The notes beneath the pieces are model-generated. The model did not search any database, was not told where the DNA came from, and saw only the letters and a program-made list of their open reading frames with translations. A stretch of 64,000 bases of DNA from Sulfuricurvum sp. 17-40-25 (GTDB taxonomy: Bacteria > Campylobacterota > Campylobacteria > Campylobacterales > Sulfurimonadaceae), in the NCBI GenBank assembly GCA_002282015.1, contig NCIJ01000002.1, positions 331,786 to 395,785 on the forward strand, read 5' to 3'. Positions 1 through 8,880 of this stretch are shown here, piece after piece. How positions within the stretch are numbered: position 1 is the first letter of the stretch; each line of letters opens with the position of its first letter. The translations under genes were made by a program, and so were the position numbers.

Positions 1-328
1 CCAATGAGCTCTCAGAACCTGGAACACGTATCATATCTCCCAACGTCAACAAAATCGTATTTCTCATACGCGCCAGATCAATCGCCTGATCAATGCGCTC
101 TTTGGGCATGATACACACAGGACATCCTGGTCCATGGATAAATTCTATCGTATCAGGCAGGAGCTGTTTTAGACCGTACTTCATAATCGTATGAGTATGT
201 CCACCGCACACTTCCATAATCTTCAGTGGCTGTGAAAGTTTTAGAGCTTCTTGATAGATTTTTCGTGACAATGCCTGAATCGTCTGAGGATGACGAAATA
301 TGTCAAATAACGCTTTATCGTCTTGCAT
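1..328 (-). CDS. hypD: HypD, hydrogenase maturation factor (partial, cut by window edge)
   Basis: Only the N-terminal ~109 codons are present; the gene runs off the left edge. Hand translation of the minus strand from the ATG at 328 gives a start MQDDKALFD, then the HypD signature MEVCGGHTHTI and the cysteine motif FIHGPGCPVCIMP. HypD carries a [4Fe-4S] cluster and, with HypC, holds the Fe(CN)2CO unit while cyanide and CO are attached to the hydrogenase iron. The start lies two bases beyond the hypC stop, so it is the next gene in the operon. hypE and hypA are not in view and probably lie further left. Confidence 0.93.
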   Translation of the reverse strand, partial: MQDDKALFDIFRHPQTIQALSRKIYQEALKLSQPLKIMEVCGGHTHTIMKYGLKQLLPDTIEFIHGPGCPVCIMPKERIDQAIDLARMRNTILLTLGDMIRVPGSESSL

Positions 329-330
329 GA

Positions 331-615
331 TCAAATACTTCGATTGGAACAATTATCATCTTGCTCAATCAATGAGCGGCGTTCTTCTTCATCCATGGCT
401 ATAATCATCTCTTCATATATCTTGAGACTTTCCAGTGCATCTTCTTCATCAATCTTACCCATCGCAAAACCGATATGAATCAGTACATAATCACCAATCG
501 CCACTACATCGGCCATCAGATCTAGACTCACTTTTCGCCGAACTCCCATCGTCTCTACGATAGCAATATTGTCCTCTTCTATCTCAACGATTTTGGAGGG
601 GATCGAGAGACACAT
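331..615 (-). CDS. hypC: HypC, hydrogenase maturation chaperone
   Basis: A 94-residue protein beginning MCLSIPSKI, the invariant MC(L/I)xxP start of HypC/HybG chaperones. The second-residue cysteine binds the iron centre and the large-subunit precursor. It partners HypD in moving the Fe(CN)2CO group into the hydrogenase large subunit in the cytoplasm. The ATG shares one base with the hypB stop (TGATG), which implies translational coupling. The protein is slightly longer than typical HypC (about 75-90 residues) because of an acidic tail ending in DDNCSNRSI, whose role is unknown. Confidence 0.95.
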   Translation of the reverse strand: MCLSIPSKIVEIEEDNIAIVETMGVRRKVSLDLMADVVAIGDYVLIHIGFAMGKIDEEDALESLKIYEEMIIAMDEEERRSLIEQDDNCSNRSI

Positions 616-1397
616 CAGTTTCTCATACTTTTTTTAAACGTGATCCACTGTATGACGTTTTGAATACTTTTGGGGTCTTTGATCGAGACTTCTAAAATAT
701 CCACAGAGGGTTTGAGCTTGCGAGCCTCTGCCTTGGCATGCGCCATGTCAAAATCGATGTAGGGAAGCAGATCACATTTGGTGATCAACACCAGATCAGC
801 TGTGCGAAACATCACGGGATATTTTTCGACTTTGTCCTCTCCCTCAGGGACAGAGACGAGAACGATATTGAGATGCGCACCCACATCGTAACTCGCTGGA
901 CACACGAGATTACCGACGTTTTCGATAAAACAAACCTCTAGGTCTGCAATAGGGAGTTCATGCAGTGCATGATGGACCATGAACGCATCGAGATGGCAGG
1001 CACTACCGGTTTGTATCTGATGTGCCGGGATTCCTTTGGCACGTATTCGATCAGCATCACGCGATGTCTCCAAATCTCCCTCAATGACTCCAAATTTAAA
1101 CGGTGCCGCATCCGCGATAGCTTCCAGTAAAGCTGTTTTTCCACTGCCAGGACTGCTCATCATATTGATAGCAAGAACACCGTGAGACTCAAAGTGCTCT
1201 CGGTTATGTTCTGCTTCATGATCGTTTTTGGCCAATATCTTGGTGATCACTGAAATCGTTTTAGGATCATTGAGCTGAGGATTATGATGTAGGGTCTCAT
1301 GTGTATGGTGATGATGTCCGTGTTCGTGGTCATGATGATGGTGGTCGTTGTGATCGTGATGATGATCCGTAATCGAACAGCCGCAATCTTTGCACAT
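615..1397 (-). CDS. hypB: HypB, nickel-binding GTPase for hydrogenase maturation
   Basis: A 260-residue GTPase that delivers nickel to the hydrogenase large subunit together with HypA. The start MCKDCGC is the CxxCGC high-affinity Ni site. It is followed at about residues 12-40 by a strongly His-rich stretch (runs such as DHHHDHNDHHHHDHEH), typical of HypB proteins that also store nickel. The P-loop SSPGSGKTALLEA lies near residue 80; ENVGNLVCP and the ITKCDL guanine-recognition motif follow. It sits one base after the permease stop and overlaps hypC by one base. The His-rich segment suggests buffering of scarce nickel, which is an inference. Confidence 0.96.
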   Translation of the reverse strand: MCKDCGCSITDHHHDHNDHHHHDHEHGHHHHTHETLHHNPQLNDPKTISVITKILAKNDHEAEHNREHFESHGVLAINMMSSPGSGKTALLEAIADAAPFKFGVIEGDLETSRDADRIRAKGIPAHQIQTGSACHLDAFMVHHALHELPIADLEVCFIENVGNLVCPASYDVGAHLNIVLVSVPEGEDKVEKYPVMFRTADLVLITKCDLLPYIDFDMAHAKAEARKLKPSVDILEVSIKDPKSIQNVIQWITFKKSMRN

Positions 1398-1398
1398 A

Positions 1399-1938
1399 CT
1401 AGTTCTCCATCACAGTGCCGTGCATTTGACGATACATGCTGATCTTTTGCATCCCTACAGCAGCCATTATTCCTAAAAGGTGCAAGATACCGGTAGTCAC
1501 TGTAAATCCAGTCGCATATCCTAGGCTTCCTATGTTCAATGGCATCTCAGAGACATGTGCAAATCCGTGAAACAGGGCAAAAAGAGCAACAGTAACGGTG
1601 CTAAGTGCTACCGATACGTTCAGTTTCATTACAATAAACACTCCAAGCAACAATACCGATACTGTAATCGCTTCTTCCACATACGGTACGTGCATCCCTT
1701 GCAAGCCGATCATCGCTCCAACACTCATCATACTCATAAAACTGACAGGAACCGCCCACAATGCACGTCCACCCATTTGTGCGGCCCAAAAACCTACGGC
1801 CAACATCGTCACAATATGATCACTCCCATGAAGCGGATGAGTCAGACCAGCCTGTAGACCTGACACACTTCCAACCCCTGCATGTGCCATTAGTGCTGCT
1901 TCTAGCACTAAAACAATAAGCATAATTTTTTTGATCAT
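1399..1938 (-). CDS. HupE/UreJ-type nickel permease
   Basis: A small hydrophobic protein of about 179 residues with a signal-like first segment ending near AHAG and about five further membrane segments. It has both HupE/UreJ hallmarks: HPLHGSDHI near the N-terminus and FHGFAHVSEMP in the second half. HupE-family proteins mediate nickel entry for hydrogenase or urease assembly. An upstream GTG at 1944 touches the Shine-Dalgarno (AAGGAG at 1945-1950 on the minus strand), so the ATG at 1938, six bases from it, is the likely start. Its position between hypF and hypB fits a nickel supply role for this hydrogenase. Confidence 0.88.
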   Translation of the reverse strand: MIKKIMLIVLVLEAALMAHAGVGSVSGLQAGLTHPLHGSDHIVTMLAVGFWAAQMGGRALWAVPVSFMSMMSVGAMIGLQGMHVPYVEEAITVSVLLLGVFIVMKLNVSVALSTVTVALFALFHGFAHVSEMPLNIGSLGYATGFTVTTGILHLLGIMAAVGMQKISMYRQMHGTVMEN

Positions 1939-1975
1939 AATCACTCCTTTATCCGTGTTCGTCTAATTATAAACA

Positions 1976-4216
1976 TTAAAGGTTATAAATACCCCACCAT
2001 GCCTGACCAAGTGCTATTGAACCATCGTTGATCGGAGTCTTTTGCTGAAAATAGAAATCTCGATGATTCAATGACATCTGCAGTTTTTCCATCAACGTGC
2101 GGTTTTGAAAAACCCCACCTGATACCACGATGGGAAGATCTGGATACCTCTGTGCAAAACTGCTAATGATGGCCTCCACCGTCGCCAAAAATCGGCTGGC
2201 AATAATACGTTTTGCTTCCTCTTTGTCAGACATCGACGATTCCAGCGCTATGATCTGAGCGATCATGGGTCTAACATCAATTTCTTCCCCGATAGTCAGA
2301 AATTCAAAGGGTTCGCACATAGCCTTATCCACGTATTTTTCGATCAATAACCCAGCCTGCGCTTCATACGCCAGAGTCTGAACAAAGCCACCCAAACTCG
2401 CAACAGCGTCAAACAGCCTGCCCATGGAACTGCACATGGGAGCATTGAGTTTTTGTGACCACATATAATGCAGCTGGCGTATCTCATAGGGTAAAAAAGC
2501 ATCTACAGCGGGAGATGAGAGCGATAATACTTCTTCCAACGTATGAGATTCAAACAACAATGACAGTGCAATACGGCGAGGCTCTTTGATAGCACGATCC
2601 CCTCCCAATAAGGCAAAAGGCTTCAGCCATCCGATGCGTTCATAGGAGTGAACATCCGCAATCATCACCTCTGATCCCCACAGCGTGTTATTGGTTCCAT
2701 ATCCGGTTCCATCAAACGCAAACCCCAAAACTTTTTGACTCAATGAATGTTCGGCCATACATGCCAACACATGCGCGTAATGGTGCTGGAGTTCATGATG
2801 TTCATAATTTGTTTCCAATGCATACCGTGTTGAATAATAGTGAGGGTGCATATCGTGTATCAAAACCATTCGTTGATCAGGATAGAATCGCTCGAACGTA
2901 TGGATGGTCCGTTCAAAATACTCCTGCGTTTGAATCGTCTCTAAATCCCCAATATAACCGCTTAACACGAGGTTTTTCTCAGAAGCTATCGCTATCGCAT
3001 TTTTTTGATGTGCACCCAGGGCTAAGATACGTTTGGTGACAGACTTTTTGGTTTGTACCGTATAGGGTGTATGCCCTCTACCCATGCGCAACATCACCGT
3101 TGTGTCATTGACCGCTTGAACAACCGAATCATCCAAAGCATTGACGATCACACGGTTATGGTTGATAATCCCTCCCAAGGAATTTCCAAAACATCCTAGG
3201 AGCTCTTTGGATCGGATCATCATCGGTTCATCGCTCACATTGGCACTGGTGACTATCAAGGGGAAATCAATCGCGTCCAATAGCAATCGATGCAATGGTG
3301 TATACGGGAGAAAGACCCCTATACGATCCAACCCAGGGGCTATATTAACCGATAGGTTGTTCGAATCCTTAGCATGGACGATGACGATAGGTTTGATGGC
3401 ATCGTCGATCAAATATTCTTCATATTTACTAATATTAGTATACTTATGGATCTCTTGCAGGGAATCAAACATCACAGCAAACGGCTTTCTGGGACGATGT
3501 TTTAATCGTCGCAGTGCTTGTATCGCATCATAATTGGTGGCATCACACAGCAGATTAAAACCGCCCAACCCCTTGAGCGCGATGATCTTCCCCGATACAA
3601 GCATTTTTACCGCTTCTTGTATCGGATCACCTTTTATTATCATCCCATCTGCATCCATAAAAGAGAGACTTGGCCCGCACTCAGGACACGCAATCGGTTG
3701 TGCATGGTAACGGCGTGAATTTGGATCCGTGTATTCACGCTCACAAGCATCGCACATCGTAAAGTGTTTCATCGAAGTACGGACGCGATCGTACGGAGGG
3801 ATTTGCATGATCGTATAGCGCGGACCGCAATCACTGCAGTTGATAAATGGATATCCAAACCGCCGATTTCTAGGATCTCGCAGCTCTCGTTCACACTCAG
3901 CACACAGTGCTGTATCCCTAGGGATAACCGTATTTCCATCCCCTTCTAAGCTTGAGCGAATCTCAAACTCTAAGTTGTGTCCCCCATTTATGGAAACTCT
4001 ATCCAATGAATCAATCCGAGCGCCACTGGGAAGATTCTCCCTTAGGCTATTTATGAATAACTCTGTATCGTGACCATGGATTTCGATAACTGCTCCGAAT
4101 GACGTATTGGCAACAAAGCCGGTGAGATTGTAACGTTTGGCCTCCCGATACACAAAGGGGCGAAAACCGACCCCTTGCACCAGACCTCTGATCTCGAGTC
4201 GCACGTGTTGCATCAT
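1976..4216 (-). CDS. hypF: HypF, carbamoyltransferase for hydrogenase maturation
   Basis: A 746-residue protein, the usual HypF length. Domains in order: an N-terminal acylphosphatase domain (RGLVQGVGFRPFVYREA, residues ~10-26); two zinc-finger-like blocks with repeated CxxC pairs (CAECEREL, INCSDCGP, CDACEREY, CPECGP, ~100-185); a YrdC-like domain that makes the carbamoyl adenylate; and a Kae1-like domain (HHYAHVLACMAEH). HypF makes the carbamoyl group that HypE converts to the CN ligands of the active site. The start ATGATG overlaps the protease stop by four bases, indicating coupled translation. Confidence 0.97.
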   Translation of the reverse strand: MMQHVRLEIRGLVQGVGFRPFVYREAKRYNLTGFVANTSFGAVIEIHGHDTELFINSLRENLPSGARIDSLDRVSINGGHNLEFEIRSSLEGDGNTVIPRDTALCAECERELRDPRNRRFGYPFINCSDCGPRYTIMQIPPYDRVRTSMKHFTMCDACEREYTDPNSRRYHAQPIACPECGPSLSFMDADGMIIKGDPIQEAVKMLVSGKIIALKGLGGFNLLCDATNYDAIQALRRLKHRPRKPFAVMFDSLQEIHKYTNISKYEEYLIDDAIKPIVIVHAKDSNNLSVNIAPGLDRIGVFLPYTPLHRLLLDAIDFPLIVTSANVSDEPMMIRSKELLGCFGNSLGGIINHNRVIVNALDDSVVQAVNDTTVMLRMGRGHTPYTVQTKKSVTKRILALGAHQKNAIAIASEKNLVLSGYIGDLETIQTQEYFERTIHTFERFYPDQRMVLIHDMHPHYYSTRYALETNYEHHELQHHYAHVLACMAEHSLSQKVLGFAFDGTGYGTNNTLWGSEVMIADVHSYERIGWLKPFALLGGDRAIKEPRRIALSLLFESHTLEEVLSLSSPAVDAFLPYEIRQLHYMWSQKLNAPMCSSMGRLFDAVASLGGFVQTLAYEAQAGLLIEKYVDKAMCEPFEFLTIGEEIDVRPMIAQIIALESSMSDKEEAKRIIASRFLATVEAIISSFAQRYPDLPIVVSGGVFQNRTLMEKLQMSLNHRDFYFQQKTPINDGSIALGQAWWGIYNL

Positions 4217-4758
4217 CCCTGCGCCCTAGTATACGGATCACGATACGATTCTATGACCTCATTTAGCTCAAATAGTTGTTCATTGACGGTTACAGTGACG
4301 CCGACTTCTTCCAATATTGCTAGAAGGGATTGGATAAATGTATCAAACCGTTTTTTGAGTATTGGACTTAAATCCATAGCAACGGTTTGGATGTCTGAGG
4401 GAATGATCCCTAGAACGCTGATGAGTGCCCTCACGTCCATCAACGATGCCAACTCGATCATTTGGGTTACTTCGACCTCATGAACCGTTTTACGTGTATC
4501 TCCAAGCCCCAGAAGAGCATCTGAGGGAAGATGGTAGATTGATCCTGCTTTTTCATCAATTGAGAGGGTATCGAGAAGTATGACGTGATCATAGTGGGTA
4601 AAGTACTGCATGAGATTAAATCCCAGCGTCCCCCCGTCTATGATCTCGATGGGCGGTTCAAAACCGTAGTTCGTTTCCAGATACTTCGCCGCATAGACCC
4701 CTATCCCATCATCGGTAAACAGTATATTTCCTACTCCGATGACTGCGATAGTATTCAT
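4213..4758 (-). CDS. [NiFe] hydrogenase maturation protease (HyaD/HupD-type)
   Basis: About 181 residues from the ATG at 4758 (MNTIAVIGVGNILFTDDGIG). The GxGNxLxxDDGxG motif is the peptidase M52 signature, and its acidic residue contacts the nickel. Other conserved blocks are EIIDGGTLG and DHVILLDT. The enzyme removes the C-terminal peptide of the hydrogenase large subunit after nickel insertion. An alternative start 17 codons upstream would overlap the large-subunit gene; the ATG used here matches the family N-terminus and leaves a 7-base gap. The partner gene directly upstream still encodes the tail to be cleaved. Confidence 0.93.
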   Translation of the reverse strand: MNTIAVIGVGNILFTDDGIGVYAAKYLETNYGFEPPIEIIDGGTLGFNLMQYFTHYDHVILLDTLSIDEKAGSIYHLPSDALLGLGDTRKTVHEVEVTQMIELASLMDVRALISVLGIIPSDIQTVAMDLSPILKKRFDTFIQSLLAILEEVGVTVTVNEQLFELNEVIESYRDPYTRAQG

Positions 4759-4765
4759 GCGTTTC

Positions 4766-6460
4766 TTATACAGAACAAACGGTCTGTATCTTGTAGTGTG
4801 AGAGTTCACGCCCCTTGGTATCGATTACATGAACCGCACAGGCCAAACACGGATCAAACGAGTGCACAACACGTAAGACTTCCAACGGACGCGTTGGATC
4901 AGTGAGTTTAACCCCGATGAGTGCTTCTTCATACGGTCCTCTCACGCCCGCAGCATCTTTGGGTGATGCGTTCCACGTTGTGGGTGCGACTACTTGATAA
5001 TTGGCGACTTTGCCCTCTTCGATGCGGATAAAATGGCTCAATATCCCTCGGGGAACTTCAAAGATACCATGACCTTTAGACGTTGTCGGCAACTCTTCAA
5101 ACACATACTTGGTCCAAGTGGTCTCATCGTAGTATTTGATGTTTTCGATCAATTCACTCATAAAATCAAAAAGATAATCACAACATATCTGCGCCTCAAC
5201 CGCACGTGCTGCATTACGCCCGACACTGCTGGAAAAATCGATCAGCTTCATCCCTGTTTGACTCATAAATCGGTCCATATAGGGTTTGATAACAGGAGAG
5301 TTCTTGACTGTTCCCACGATCATACGGGAAACTGGACCCACTTCCATCACTTTACCCTCATAGCGCGGCGCTTTTATCCAGCTGTATTTTCCCTCAGATT
5401 TAAGTGTCCCATCCTCATTGAGATCGGTATAAAACGGCGTGCTATCTTGATCGTAGGGTGAGGTCGTAGTATTGTTTTCATACCATGCTCGTGATGCTTC
5501 TTCCGTAATTTTTTCAGGATCAAACGCTTCTAGGGTATCAAAATCATGCCCCGTGATGACACCACCCTCAAACAACTGTTCTTTGTTAGGTAAACGATAT
5601 CCACCGCAGCACAAAAAGTTCCCGCTGCCACGACCCTCGCCACGTTTTATAGATTCACCATACGCTTTGACGACCATTTTGATATCGGGGATGTATGCTC
5701 GCTCTAAAAACTCCCGTACCTCTTTGATGATGAACATAAAATCATTCAGCCGTTGAGGATTGAGCATGTCCATAACACTTGTCACCCCGCCGACGACCAA
5801 GTTTTGAGGATGGGGTGTCTTGCCCGCAAAAATAGCAATCGCTTTGGAGATATCATGCTGTATCCGAAGCGCTTCGAGGTAATGGTTCATGTGCACCAGA
5901 TTCTCTTCGGGTGTCAGACGATAGGTCTCATGCCCCCAATAGCCGTTTGAAAATAGCCCCAAACGCCCTGCTTTGACAAAACTGCCCAGCTTCTCTTTGA
6001 CACTCTGTAAATGACCCTCAGAGTTACGATACGGATTCTCGTGATAGTGTTGCGCCATCGTGACTGCTTTCGCGCAATCCGCTTCCAACGCACTCGTAAT
6101 ATCGACAAAATCAAGCGAGTGAAGGTGGTAATAGTGAATAATATGATCTTGTACAAAAAGAGCTAGACTGACGAGATTACGAATGATCTCAGCATTTTTG
6201 GGAATAGTGATGGCATAGGCGTCTTCGACTGCACTGATGGAAGCGCGATAATGAACGTTGGTACACACACCGCATATACGCTGAGCGATTAAACCGACAT
6301 CTCTGGGATCACGCCCTTTTAGTATAATCTCAATTCCTCGAAACAGCTGTCCTGAAGCCCATGCTTCGGTGACGACATTATTCTCATCTACTTCTACTTC
6401 GATACGCAAGTGTCCTTCGATTCGAGTGACGGGATCGATGACTATTTTGTTCTTACTCAT
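4766..6460 (-). CDS. [NiFe] hydrogenase large subunit
   Basis: A 564-residue catalytic subunit. The N-terminal nickel motif is RICGVCTNVH (C63, C66, H70). The C-terminal motif is DPCLACAVH (C538, C541, H544), followed by a 20-residue tail beginning VIDTKGREL that the neighbouring protease should remove after the histidine. The N-terminus KIVIDPVTRIEGHLRIEVE is typical of the family. It overlaps the small-subunit fusion gene by four bases (ATGA). No membrane anchor or cytochrome b gene is seen in the operon, and the small subunit lacks a Tat signal, so a cytoplasmic enzyme of the group 2 type is inferred. Confidence 0.96.
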   Translation of the reverse strand: MSKNKIVIDPVTRIEGHLRIEVEVDENNVVTEAWASGQLFRGIEIILKGRDPRDVGLIAQRICGVCTNVHYRASISAVEDAYAITIPKNAEIIRNLVSLALFVQDHIIHYYHLHSLDFVDITSALEADCAKAVTMAQHYHENPYRNSEGHLQSVKEKLGSFVKAGRLGLFSNGYWGHETYRLTPEENLVHMNHYLEALRIQHDISKAIAIFAGKTPHPQNLVVGGVTSVMDMLNPQRLNDFMFIIKEVREFLERAYIPDIKMVVKAYGESIKRGEGRGSGNFLCCGGYRLPNKEQLFEGGVITGHDFDTLEAFDPEKITEEASRAWYENNTTTSPYDQDSTPFYTDLNEDGTLKSEGKYSWIKAPRYEGKVMEVGPVSRMIVGTVKNSPVIKPYMDRFMSQTGMKLIDFSSSVGRNAARAVEAQICCDYLFDFMSELIENIKYYDETTWTKYVFEELPTTSKGHGIFEVPRGILSHFIRIEEGKVANYQVVAPTTWNASPKDAAGVRGPYEEALIGVKLTDPTRPLEVLRVVHSFDPCLACAVHVIDTKGRELSHYKIQTVCSV

Positions 6461-8880
6461 TGAGGTTCCTTGGTAAGCGGTCGATGGTTGGCGTATTGAT
6501 CAAACGCAATTTTTCCCGCACCACAGGCAAAACATCCATGACCTACTTGGACAGGCCAACTGGTCCCCTCATTAAACTTCACCTGTGAGCAGTTCATCTG
6601 TGCATAGGGACCCTTACATCCCATCATAAATAAACACCATCCCTTTTTAGCCCCTTCATCTCCCCACTCCAAGACAAACTCACCCAGATCAAAATGACCG
6701 CGCCGTTCGCAGTTGTCATGCACTCTAGCTCCATACGCCCATACCGGACGATTTTTTTCATCAAGTTTTGGAAACTCCTCAAACATCATAAAATGCAAAA
6801 GTGTCCCGACGATATTGATAGGATTGACAGGACATCCCGGTAAATTGATGATATCGGTACGCCCAAGTGCTTCGGCTACACCCACAGCACCCGTAGGATT
6901 AGGAGCTGCCGCAACGACGCCTCCATCATACGCGCACGATCCTACAGCAATCACTGCCGCCGCATTTTGCGCTACACGTTTTAGTAGCGCATGCCCTGTT
7001 TCCCCTTTGGTACCGATACGCAAAAACTTTCCATCAAGCCCAAGAGGTACAGCCCCCTCGACGATAAGAACGTATTTTCCAGAATCATATTTTAAAATAT
7101 CATCTAGTACGGTCTCCGATTGATCACCAGAGCCTGCCATTAGCAGTTCATGATAATCCAGTGAGATATATTTCAAAATCAAATCGTCTATTTTCGGATG
7201 GGAGGATTTGATAAATCCTTCTGAGTTTCCACTGCAATCCGCAAGTTCCAGCCAAATGATCGGTATCTTATTGAGCTGTGACACACCTTCTTTGACCACG
7301 TCCTCGTATCCGGGGTGCAAGTTCATGGTTGCGGTGATCATCGAGACCCATTTGTTAAATTCCTGACTCATGTCAAAGGATTCCATTGCCTCTTCTAGAT
7401 TCTCAAAACTAAGCTGATTTTTGGGATGAATTTTATTGTATTTTTCAATGCGTCTACGCACCAGTGCCATCTCGGCTTCTTTTACATCCGCTTCTCGTTG
7501 TGTGTGTAGTTGTTGTGCCATCGCAGCATTCACTGGTGTCGCTGCAATCAATGCCGTGATATCTTGCTTACAGCGTCCGCATACCCGTCCAGCTTGGGTA
7601 TAGGGTTTGAGCTCTGAAAAAGAGGTAATAGCGTTTTGCTTGATGATATCAACAAGTTGCGATTCATAAACACTCTCACAGCTACATACAAGACGGCCTT
7701 TACCGCTATGCAGTCGATTGGAATATAAATAAGCCGCATCAATAGGCTTATCCATTTCAATAAGGCGCTTAAGATACATTAGATCAATATTGGTATTAAT
7801 TCCGATGAAACGTTTAAGCCTGTCATTGTTTACGATGTATTGATCAACACAGTTTTCATGGGTTATTAAAAGGGTTTCATTTCCGGAATCCTTTGGATCA
7901 TAACTGGGGGAACTGACATCGGCAAACAAAAATGAGCCTACTTTTAACCCATCAATCGCTACTTCTTGAGCAAACTGTTTGGTTTCTAATCCCAATATAT
8001 TGCCAATAGCCACATCTGCCTGCAACGTACACTCTTTGACCCGCCCTGCTATAAAACCACTGCTTCGTAGTTGTGCCGCTTCACCCACACAATAAATATC
8101 GGGGTTGGAAGTACACAAAGTGTCGTCCACCAAAATACCTTTATCACATTCCAAGGTTTGACGTGCAAAATCAATATGAGGTGTAATTCCAACACCAAAA
8201 ATAAGAAACGGATGTTCAATAATTCTATGATGTGTTTGCAGACTCGTAATGGTATTATTAGAGATGGTTTTATCGATGATCTCATCATTAAACTCAATGT
8301 GTATACGAGGGTCCTGTTCAAAAATTCCTTGAAGCAAGGAAATCCCCTCACGGCTCAAGTCCTGTGAATAAAGATACTCTTTTCGTGCCAGTAAAGTGAT
8401 TGATTTGGCCGATGGGCTTTGCATCAATGTGTCGAGCAATTCTAGACCAATCGGTCCAACACCAACGATGACTACATTTTTTCCGACAATCCCATCCGCT
8501 ATTTTTTCACTGTCTTTTTCACTGCGAAACGTTGAGGCATTGGTTATATGTTCTATATCAAACAGCGTTTTGGGATTCGATCCGGTCGCGATGATCAGTT
8601 TATCGTAGGCGAATACGGCATGCTCGCTGAAAATGCGTTTTGCTGAAATGTCGATACCAATAACGGTTTGGTTAAGTTCCAGACGTACTTTTGGATGAAG
8701 ATCCAGAGTTATGGATTTAATCGCTTGGCTTTTATTGACAAGGGCACACAAGTGAATACGATCATAGGGTGAATGCGACTCGTCCGATACGATGAGAACT
8801 TCAGATAAGGGGGATTTTTTCAGTATGGTATTGGCCAGGTAAACCGCAGATATACCGCCGCCGACAATCACAATTCGCAC
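6457..8880 (-). CDS. Flavoprotein / [2Fe-2S] BFD / [NiFe] hydrogenase small subunit fusion
   Basis: An 807-residue three-part protein. Residues 1-~310 form a pyridine-nucleotide-disulfide reductase fold: IVIVGGGISA (3-12) for FAD, VVIVGVGPIGLE (136-147) for NAD(P), and a C-terminal FAD block PDIYCVGEAA. Residues ~396-440 carry a BFD-type [2Fe-2S] site, C399xC401 and C434xxC437, as in NirB. A helical linker (~455-530) leads to a hydrogenase small subunit from ~538: C549-SGN, C649 (GSC), C683 (PGCP) for the proximal cluster; H721, C724, C749, C755 for the distal cluster; C764, P776, C783, C786 for a medial [3Fe-4S] type. There is no Tat signal. The start is GTG at 8880 behind AGGGGG. The fusion is continuous; no internal stop is present. 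Confidence 0.9.
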   Translation of the reverse strand: MRIVIVGGGISAVYLANTILKKSPLSEVLIVSDESHSPYDRIHLCALVNKSQAIKSITLDLHPKVRLELNQTVIGIDISAKRIFSEHAVFAYDKLIIATGSNPKTLFDIEHITNASTFRSEKDSEKIADGIVGKNVVIVGVGPIGLELLDTLMQSPSAKSITLLARKEYLYSQDLSREGISLLQGIFEQDPRIHIEFNDEIIDKTISNNTITSLQTHHRIIEHPFLIFGVGITPHIDFARQTLECDKGILVDDTLCTSNPDIYCVGEAAQLRSSGFIAGRVKECTLQADVAIGNILGLETKQFAQEVAIDGLKVGSFLFADVSSPSYDPKDSGNETLLITHENCVDQYIVNNDRLKRFIGINTNIDLMYLKRLIEMDKPIDAAYLYSNRLHSGKGRLVCSCESVYESQLVDIIKQNAITSFSELKPYTQAGRVCGRCKQDITALIAATPVNAAMAQQLHTQREADVKEAEMALVRRRIEKYNKIHPKNQLSFENLEEAMESFDMSQEFNKWVSMITATMNLHPGYEDVVKEGVSQLNKIPIIWLELADCSGNSEGFIKSSHPKIDDLILKYISLDYHELLMAGSGDQSETVLDDILKYDSGKYVLIVEGAVPLGLDGKFLRIGTKGETGHALLKRVAQNAAAVIAVGSCAYDGGVVAAAPNPTGAVGVAEALGRTDIINLPGCPVNPINIVGTLLHFMMFEEFPKLDEKNRPVWAYGARVHDNCERRGHFDLGEFVLEWGDEGAKKGWCLFMMGCKGPYAQMNCSQVKFNEGTSWPVQVGHGCFACGAGKIAFDQYANHRPLTKEPQ

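Follow-up and report, generated by a model that had tools for sequence, protein, structure and literature searches.

The closest described relatives of the gene examined here are the 'cluster II' group 1b [NiFe] hydrogenases of Hydrogenovibrio (Thiomicrospira) crunogenus strains XCL-2 and SP-41. According to Hansen & Perner (2016, PMC4744846), who credit Scott et al. 2006 for the XCL-2 small subunit, this protein of 813 residues carries a pyridine nucleotide-disulfide oxidoreductase domain with a binding site for reduced nicotinamide adenine dinucleotide (NADH), has neither a twin-arginine translocation (Tat) signal nor a cytochrome b, and has Fe-S sites that were judged not conserved; the authors list the same architecture for S. 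kujiense, Sulfurovum sp. AR, S. autotrophica, A. nitrofigilis and T. microaerophilum. For SP-41, Gonnella et al. (2019, PMC6501319) report that the large-subunit gene of the fused type is expressed, most highly with H2 as sole electron donor, and suggest that the enzyme may additionally serve as a soluble hydrogenase. In the window, by which we mean the whole 64,000-nucleotide stretch of Sulfuricurvum sp. 17-40-25 analyzed here (contig NCIJ01000002.1, positions 331,786 to 395,785), one gene encodes a protein of this type, and together with the adjoining large subunit it probably (roughly 60%, judging from sequence) forms a cytoplasmic oxidoreductase passing electrons from H2 to the phosphorylated dinucleotide NADP+.

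A preliminary description of the window overstated the novelty of this architecture, since the fusion is already in print (PMC4744846). What the present analysis adds to the printed accounts is the BFD link between the two halves, an apparently dead Tat signal in the linker, an NADP-type site, the ligand substitution Asn552 and the genomic context of a sole hydrogenase. The terms BFD, NADP, 2Fe-2S, flavoprotein and FAD (flavin adenine dinucleotide) are absent from PMC4744846, and BFD and pyridine from PMC6501319; the accessible parts of both papers report a missing Tat motif and do not mention a remnant of it.

Architecture of the fused small subunit

The fused gene (6457..8880, minus strand; identified from its open reading frame, Pfam matches and relatives) is a single frame of 807 residues from a GTG start with zero internal stops. 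Pfam domains follow one another in the order Pyr_redox_2 (1-269), Fer2_BFD (397-446), Oxidored_q6 (549-696) and NiFe_hyd_SSU_C (716-788), which bears out the earlier proposal that flavoprotein, BFD and [NiFe] small subunit share one continuous frame. Nothing basic separates this protein from the XCL-2 and SP-41 type: it too places an oxidoreductase domain ahead of a group 1 small subunit within about 810 residues, and it too lacks a cytochrome b subunit and, where one would align, a Tat motif.

The first 390 residues (7711..8880, minus strand) form NirB/BphA4-type FAD and NAD(P) domains, as judged by Pfam, alignment, AlphaFold and Foldseek. Residues 3-456 are co-linear with NirB through the BFD domain, scoring 129.9 bits where the NirB cut-off is 578. 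The AlphaFold model is confident here (predicted local distance difference test, pLDDT, of at least 88 in 37 of 39 ten-residue means), and the best Foldseek matches of the flavoprotein part are putidaredoxin reductase and BphA4, flavoenzymes that exchange electrons with [2Fe-2S] partners. Among the 176 distinct fused sequences collected (a count that takes in incomplete copies and a single piece of the window's gene, shorter fragments having been dropped), the GxG at positions 140/142 is kept in all 176 and that at 7/9 in all 165 that have a letter there. The BFD [2Fe-2S]-type domain (residues 397-446; 7543..7692, minus strand; Pfam and family alignment) carries its four cysteines at C399, C401, C434 and C437, as first described, and all four are kept in 176/176 sequences. 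This predicted domain connects the flavoprotein with the hydrogenase, as it does in the front half of NirB. NirB is the large subunit of NADH-nitrite reductase and NasB the electron transfer subunit of an assimilatory nitrate reductase; like them, the fused protein has an FAD/NAD fold followed by BFD [2Fe-2S]. Unlike them, it has no nitrite/sulfite reductase siroheme domain in the Pfam scan, and it differs from distant homologues in its Arg166 and Cys45, most of those carrying Glu165 and Thr or Ser45.

A search with residues 1-449 returned fused proteins or shorter pieces at no less than 45% identity, and after these, at 23-31%, flavoproteins that are NirB/NasB-like or related to them (among the best 120 of 267 matches). 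Its close rows number 73, of which 20 run through to the end of the hydrogenase domain, 18 break off within it and 35 stop before it; the length limits of this search exclude full-length fusions and many of the short rows look like contig-end pieces, and a rare stand-alone flavoprotein-BFD relative may exist. Two further cysteines are invariant in the fused family, C45 (8746-8748) in 170/170 sequences and C284 (8029-8031) in 175/175. Position 45, which we take to correspond to the redox cysteine of NADH oxidases, is not Cys in any of 47 distant NirB-type homologues and is Thr or Ser in 37 of them.

The [NiFe]-hydrogenase small subunit itself spans residues 538-788 (6517..7269, minus strand; Pfam and alignment). 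It had been described as complete, with all three cluster-binding sets, which needs correction: ten of the 11 ligands match those of solved hydrogenase-2 chains (C549, C649, C683; H721, C724, C749, C755; C764, C783, C786), whose residues we assume to be cluster ligands, and the second proximal Cys of the CxxC motif is replaced by Asn552 (CSGN; codon at 7225..7227, minus strand, located by alignment and read from the DNA). Asn occupies this place in 175/175 fused sequences with a letter, all other ligands are kept in every fused sequence with a letter, and among the 38 distinct periplasmic relatives, which bear a Tat motif, 27 share this Asn. Decay through loss of a proximal ligand was considered and is disfavored by this invariance and by the sharing with periplasmic relatives. 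PMC5364354 describes the Asn variant in HupS of mesophilic verrucomicrobial methanotrophs and gives Asn or Asp for enzymes of group 1f and Asn for those of group 2a, and because the variant is reported in these other groups, the worry of Hansen & Perner over the Fe-S sites is weaker than it appeared. Nostoc HupS, with cluster motifs unlike those of earlier enzymes, is reported to hold two [4Fe-4S] clusters and one [3Fe-4S] cluster (PMC4463661).

The large subunit of 564 residues is encoded directly downstream (4766..6460, minus strand; open reading frame and Pfam), its start overlapping the stop of the fused gene by 4 bases. It has the motifs RICGVC and DPCLAC and a 20-residue tail after DPCLACAVH; among 43 distinct full-length large subunits more than 60% identical to it, RICGVC and DPCxAC are kept and the tails measure 16-23 residues. 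The pair resembles [NiFe] group 1b in its hydA-type small subunit and in its large-subunit motifs, and departs from that group in having neither Tat export with a cytochrome b membrane link nor a four-Cys proximal site; the subgroup label follows PMC4744846 rather than a classifier.

A linker probably derived from an export signal

Between the two halves lies a linker (residues 455-535; 7276..7518, minus strand) that lines up with the leader found on small subunits of the periplasmic kind; one typical periplasmic leader reads DRREFMKWASATTAMLMLPP, and one typical fused linker S-REFNRWVSMITASMHLHP. Its residues 505-520 (7321..7368, minus strand) align with the Tat core, S-QEFNKWVSM in the window standing against DRREFMKWASA in a periplasmic relative. 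The pattern RRxF[LMI]K is present in 43/43 periplasmic rows (38 distinct) and in 0/176 fused sequences; the looser RRx[FLVIMY]x[KRQN] matches 6/176 of the latter, including RRRIEK of the window, which falls in a charged segment upstream of the place that aligns with the Tat motif. Median hydropathy of the leader segment is 0.34 in fused proteins versus 1.20-1.59 in 10 periplasmic rows. The C-terminal hydrophobic tail of periplasmic small subunits is likewise missing, with a median of 20 and a maximum of 32 residues after position 788 in fused proteins versus 59-65 in the 8 complete ones of those 10 rows. AlphaFold predicts the linker to be mostly helical at moderate confidence, Trp511 is kept in 176/176 fused sequences, and the ratio of nonsynonymous to synonymous substitution rates (dN/dS) over the linker is 0.07-0.12 (5 of 7 pairs computable). 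Taken from the alignment, the linker looks like a dead Tat export signal retained as structure. The periplasmic group 1b-like HydA of Campylobacterota (CAGN type) is mostly 51-55% identical over the small subunit and also has Asn for the second Cys; unlike the fused protein, it bears a Tat motif, ends in a hydrophobic stretch and has no flavoprotein.

Distribution and selection

The fusion is real and conserved, as well as earlier described in print. Among 60 searched genomes (the own genome, 36 of the same genus and 23 others of the order), a full-length fusion was found in the own genome, in 26 of the 36 and in 1 of the 23, free of stops in all, and pieces of it in 5 further genomes of the genus. 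A survey of the phylum found it in 21 of 298 genomes at least 90% complete, representing 10 of 58 genera, the 21 including the own genome and three genomes from the earlier search. Had a stop been lost here, related genomes would be expected to show two separate genes; they hold instead intact full-length relatives with no stops inside. Sequencing error or a lost stop is ruled out by these intact frames. Over the whole gene, dN/dS is 0.053-0.073 (6 of 7 pairs computable), with synonymous sites close to saturation in several pairs. Named carriers among 49 loci include Sulfuricurvum, Sulfurovum, Arcobacter, a Hydrogenimonas metagenome-assembled genome (MAG), Thiomicrospira (including Thiomicrospira microaerophila), Thiomicrorhabdus and Hydrogenovibrio, and the nearest named relatives of the window's protein are those of Sulfuricurvum MAGs, at 91% identity.

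Genomic and metabolic context

The own genome, which spans 2.3 Mb on 50 contigs and is rated 99.99% complete, encodes one [NiFe] large subunit, and its only matches to the small-subunit family are the fused gene and a NuoB-like frame of 169 residues in the nuo cluster; the fused enzyme is the sole [NiFe] hydrogenase found there. Profile searches of this genome gave zero matches to PF01512 (NuoF/HoxF), PF02906 ([FeFe]), PF02233 (PntB) and PF01292 (HydC-type cytochrome b), each of which was matched in control searches of named genomes. No other small subunit was met in four related genomes at least 97% complete (G003, G010, G031 and G047) by a search that can miss distant types. The own genome also encodes an AclB-like protein of 605 residues and a PF03971 isocitrate dehydrogenase, presumably NADP-dependent.

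RuBisCO and NuoF are both present in 4/4 gammaproteobacterial carriers of the fusion and both absent from 5/5 Campylobacterota carriers (genome completeness not stated). With RuBisCO in every one of the four gammaproteobacterial genomes, the fusion is tied neither to carbon fixation that depends on ferredoxin nor to the reductive tricarboxylic acid (TCA) cycle, even though the AclB-like protein of the own genome would suit the CO2-fixation rationale first offered. NAD(P)H would be a common need of both carrier groups, which speaks against a ferredoxin-tied role.

A predicted H2:NADP+ oxidoreductase

In the electron path that we infer, H2 would be split at the NiFe site of the large subunit, and electrons would pass from the proximal cluster (3 Cys and Asn) through the medial and distal clusters to the BFD [2Fe-2S], to FAD and finally to NADP+. 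Such a scheme would have the front half of NirB working backwards, a hydrogenase taking the place of the siroheme domain. The idea that H2 electrons reach a pyridine nucleotide directly, without Hox or diaphorase subunits, fits the absence of PF01512 matches, the NirB-like wiring, the lack of an aligned Tat motif and the lack of a hydrophobic tail; of the two nucleotides originally left open, NADP is the more likely for this protein. The predicted reaction, cytoplasmic transfer from H2 to a pyridine nucleotide, is that of the group 3d Hox enzymes. Those enzymes rely on separate HoxFU diaphorase subunits related to NuoF, and no diaphorase of the HoxF/NuoF type was met here (0 matches to PF01512).

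The preference for NADP is suggested by the place where the second strand of the NAD(P) fold ends, at which the family alignment puts Arg166 (codon 8383..8385, minus strand), an NADP-type residue. Residue 165 is acidic in 0/176 fused sequences and residue 166 is Arg in 173/176, while among the 47 distant NirB-type homologues residue 165 is Glu in 29 and Asp in 1 and residue 166 is Arg in 12. The fused protein's ARK aligns with ARG of 4h4x, titled as the BphA4 E175A/T176R/Q177G mutant, which we take to prefer NADPH. As set out in PMC5817062, NAD enzymes usually end the second strand with an acidic residue, and preference was changed from NAD to NADP by D192A/V193R/V194H/A199R in the S. mutans NAD(P)H oxidase and by E205V/M206R/F207K/D208H/P212R in the E. 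coli dihydrolipoamide dehydrogenase.

Several points weigh against the assignment as an H2:NADP+ oxidoreductase. The glycine motif of the window protein, GVGPIG, is of the GxGxxG form, which is NAD-type where GxGxxA is NADP-type (PMC5817062); its third place is Gly in 99, Ala in 75 and Ser in 2 members of the family. Ile replaces Arg166 at 2 of 4 gammaproteobacterial loci and a Sulfurovum locus (L051) has Gln there; to go by this residue, these enzymes may prefer NADH. Hansen & Perner write of an NADH-binding site, and H. crunogenus XCL-2, which carries the gene type, showed no H2 uptake activity with methyl viologen in any fraction (PMC4744846). In SP-41 activity was found in the membrane fraction, though this strain has a group 1d enzyme as well (PMC6501319). 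No assay of a fused enzyme was found in the open-access literature searched. The AlphaFold model is weak over much of the hydrogenase part (below 50 for residues 719-789; predicted template modelling score, pTM, 0.61), too weak for cofactor distances or domain packing. With one motif pointing the opposite way, NADP still appears more likely than NAD as the cofactor of the window protein.

Alternative explanations

With the same wiring, the physiological direction could be H2 evolution, making the enzyme a redox valve through which surplus NAD(P)H is disposed of in the form of H2. In principle its parts can run either way, and no sequence feature that sets the direction was found. Standard potentials are -414 mV for H2 and -320 mV for NADP+, and the reaction from H2 to NADP+ would be downhill unless H2 is very low. 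Expression in SP-41 also argues for uptake, the large-subunit gene being highest with H2 as the only donor (PMC6501319), and we regard the valve as unlikely, albeit the strongest of the alternatives.

Somewhat less probable again is a hydrogenase of the cytoplasm with a flavin module that hands electrons to an acceptor other than NAD(P)+, such as ferredoxin, rubredoxin, or a polysulfide or thiol species. The invariant C45 and C284, unaccounted for by the NADP+ scheme, would find a use there, the more so as position 45 is never Cys in the distant homologues; set against this, the Rossmann glycines of the NAD(P) fold and Arg166 are conserved and would be needless for such an acceptor.

Hansen & Perner considered for XCL-2 that the enzyme is a decaying, inactive relic, its Tat signal, cytochrome b and cluster sites seemingly lost, and the inactive XCL-2 fractions and the cluster motifs off consensus are in keeping with that view (PMC4744846). 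We consider it improbable: dN/dS indicates purifying selection, frames are intact in 10 genera, ten of 11 cluster ligands are invariant where readable, and the gene encodes the sole [NiFe] hydrogenase found in its genome, with maturation genes in the same row. The Asn variant known in groups 1f and 2a (PMC5364354) and the two [4Fe-4S] and one [3Fe-4S] clusters held by Nostoc HupS despite divergent motifs (PMC4463661) point the same way.

The proposal that electrons are bifurcated, NAD(P)+ and ferredoxin being reduced together for the reductive TCA cycle, which requires reduced ferredoxin and of which the genome encodes an AclB-like protein, is the least probable of all and finds no support in a protein with a single FAD/NAD(P) module and a single BFD, in Pfam scans that revealed no second flavin or ferredoxin domain in the fused protein or in the scanned operon proteins, or in the carriers, where the fusion does not track ferredoxin-dependent fixation (RuBisCO in 4/4 gammaproteobacterial versus 0/5 Campylobacterota genomes).

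In print the enzyme is a puzzle: conserved, transcribed in SP-41, with no activity attributable to it and suspected to be broken. The evidence gathered here favors a working enzyme under selection and supplies the missing link (BFD) and a likely acceptor (NADP+). If H2:NADP+ oxidoreduction is its true reaction, the enzyme would represent a flavin-linked [NiFe] class outside group 3 and a route from H2 to NADPH in bacteria with a complex I that lacks the NADH module; it would bear on the NADPH supply of NuoF-less Campylobacterota with H2 as donor, and a compact H2-driven NADPH regenerator could be of biotechnological use.

Origin of the fusion

A tree built from 100 small-subunit domains unites the 54 fused rows (99/69, under the starred threshold; united in 100% of bootstrap trees) and likewise gathers the 27 CxxN periplasmic rows, the 11 CxxC periplasmic rows and the 8 rows of a distant third type each into a group of its own; the tree tool warns that long branches join the third type. 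It leaves an open split where the fused group and the two periplasmic groups, CxxN and CxxC, come together; a link of the fused group to the CxxN periplasmic clade is drawn from the Asn that they share and from their similar flanking sequences. The four rows from gammaproteobacteria cluster with one another (99/100), which agrees with the transfer that Hansen & Perner proposed.

Tentatively, as an account to which we give close to even odds, one fusion turned a periplasmic respiratory hydrogenase into a cytoplasmic NADPH-making enzyme, with the killed Tat signal kept as a structural linker and half a nitrite reductase as a built-in outlet. A periplasmic group 1b-like small subunit would have lost its Tat export motif and C-terminal tail, the export-less subunit would have been joined once behind a NirB-like flavoprotein, and the old signal peptide would persist as the predicted helical linker.

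Small subunits of the third, distant type (298-319 residues, proximal motif CNGN) lie a few kb from the fused gene in relatives, at L046:12726-13622, L037:12718-13614 and L038:12747-13706; a PF01058 search gave no match of this type in the window's genome.

Neighboring genes and further observations

Downstream of the large subunit on the minus strand follow a HycI-family hydrogenase maturation protease (4213..4809, a mechanical start, the true one being probably further in) and, according to the Pfam scan of operon proteins, hypF (1976..4216), hupE (1399..1944), hypB (615..1397) and hypC (331..615). When the gene row is read across the window edge (locus L073), hypD overlaps window positions 1-352 and hypE and hypA lie beyond.

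Elsewhere in this genome without a NuoF match, the nuo cluster (L074:1283-10360) contains NuoA, B, C, D, G, H, I, J and K-like frames, named by eye, with an extra frame of 297 residues ahead of the NuoG-like frame of 828 residues.

In public records P0112, P0138, P0150, P0160 and P0161, members or pieces of the fusion are called 'hyaluronate lyase', which looks like an annotation error. The fused gene of a MAG record titled Helicobacter pylori PMSS1 (L056) groups with that of an Arcobacteraceae MAG, and the label looks wrong. In MAG FK_Sedi_A_Bin.72 the fused gene is found on two contigs (L024 and L026) at equal identity, and in genome G023 (contamination rated 8%) it likewise lies on two contigs; both cases may reflect strain mixing.

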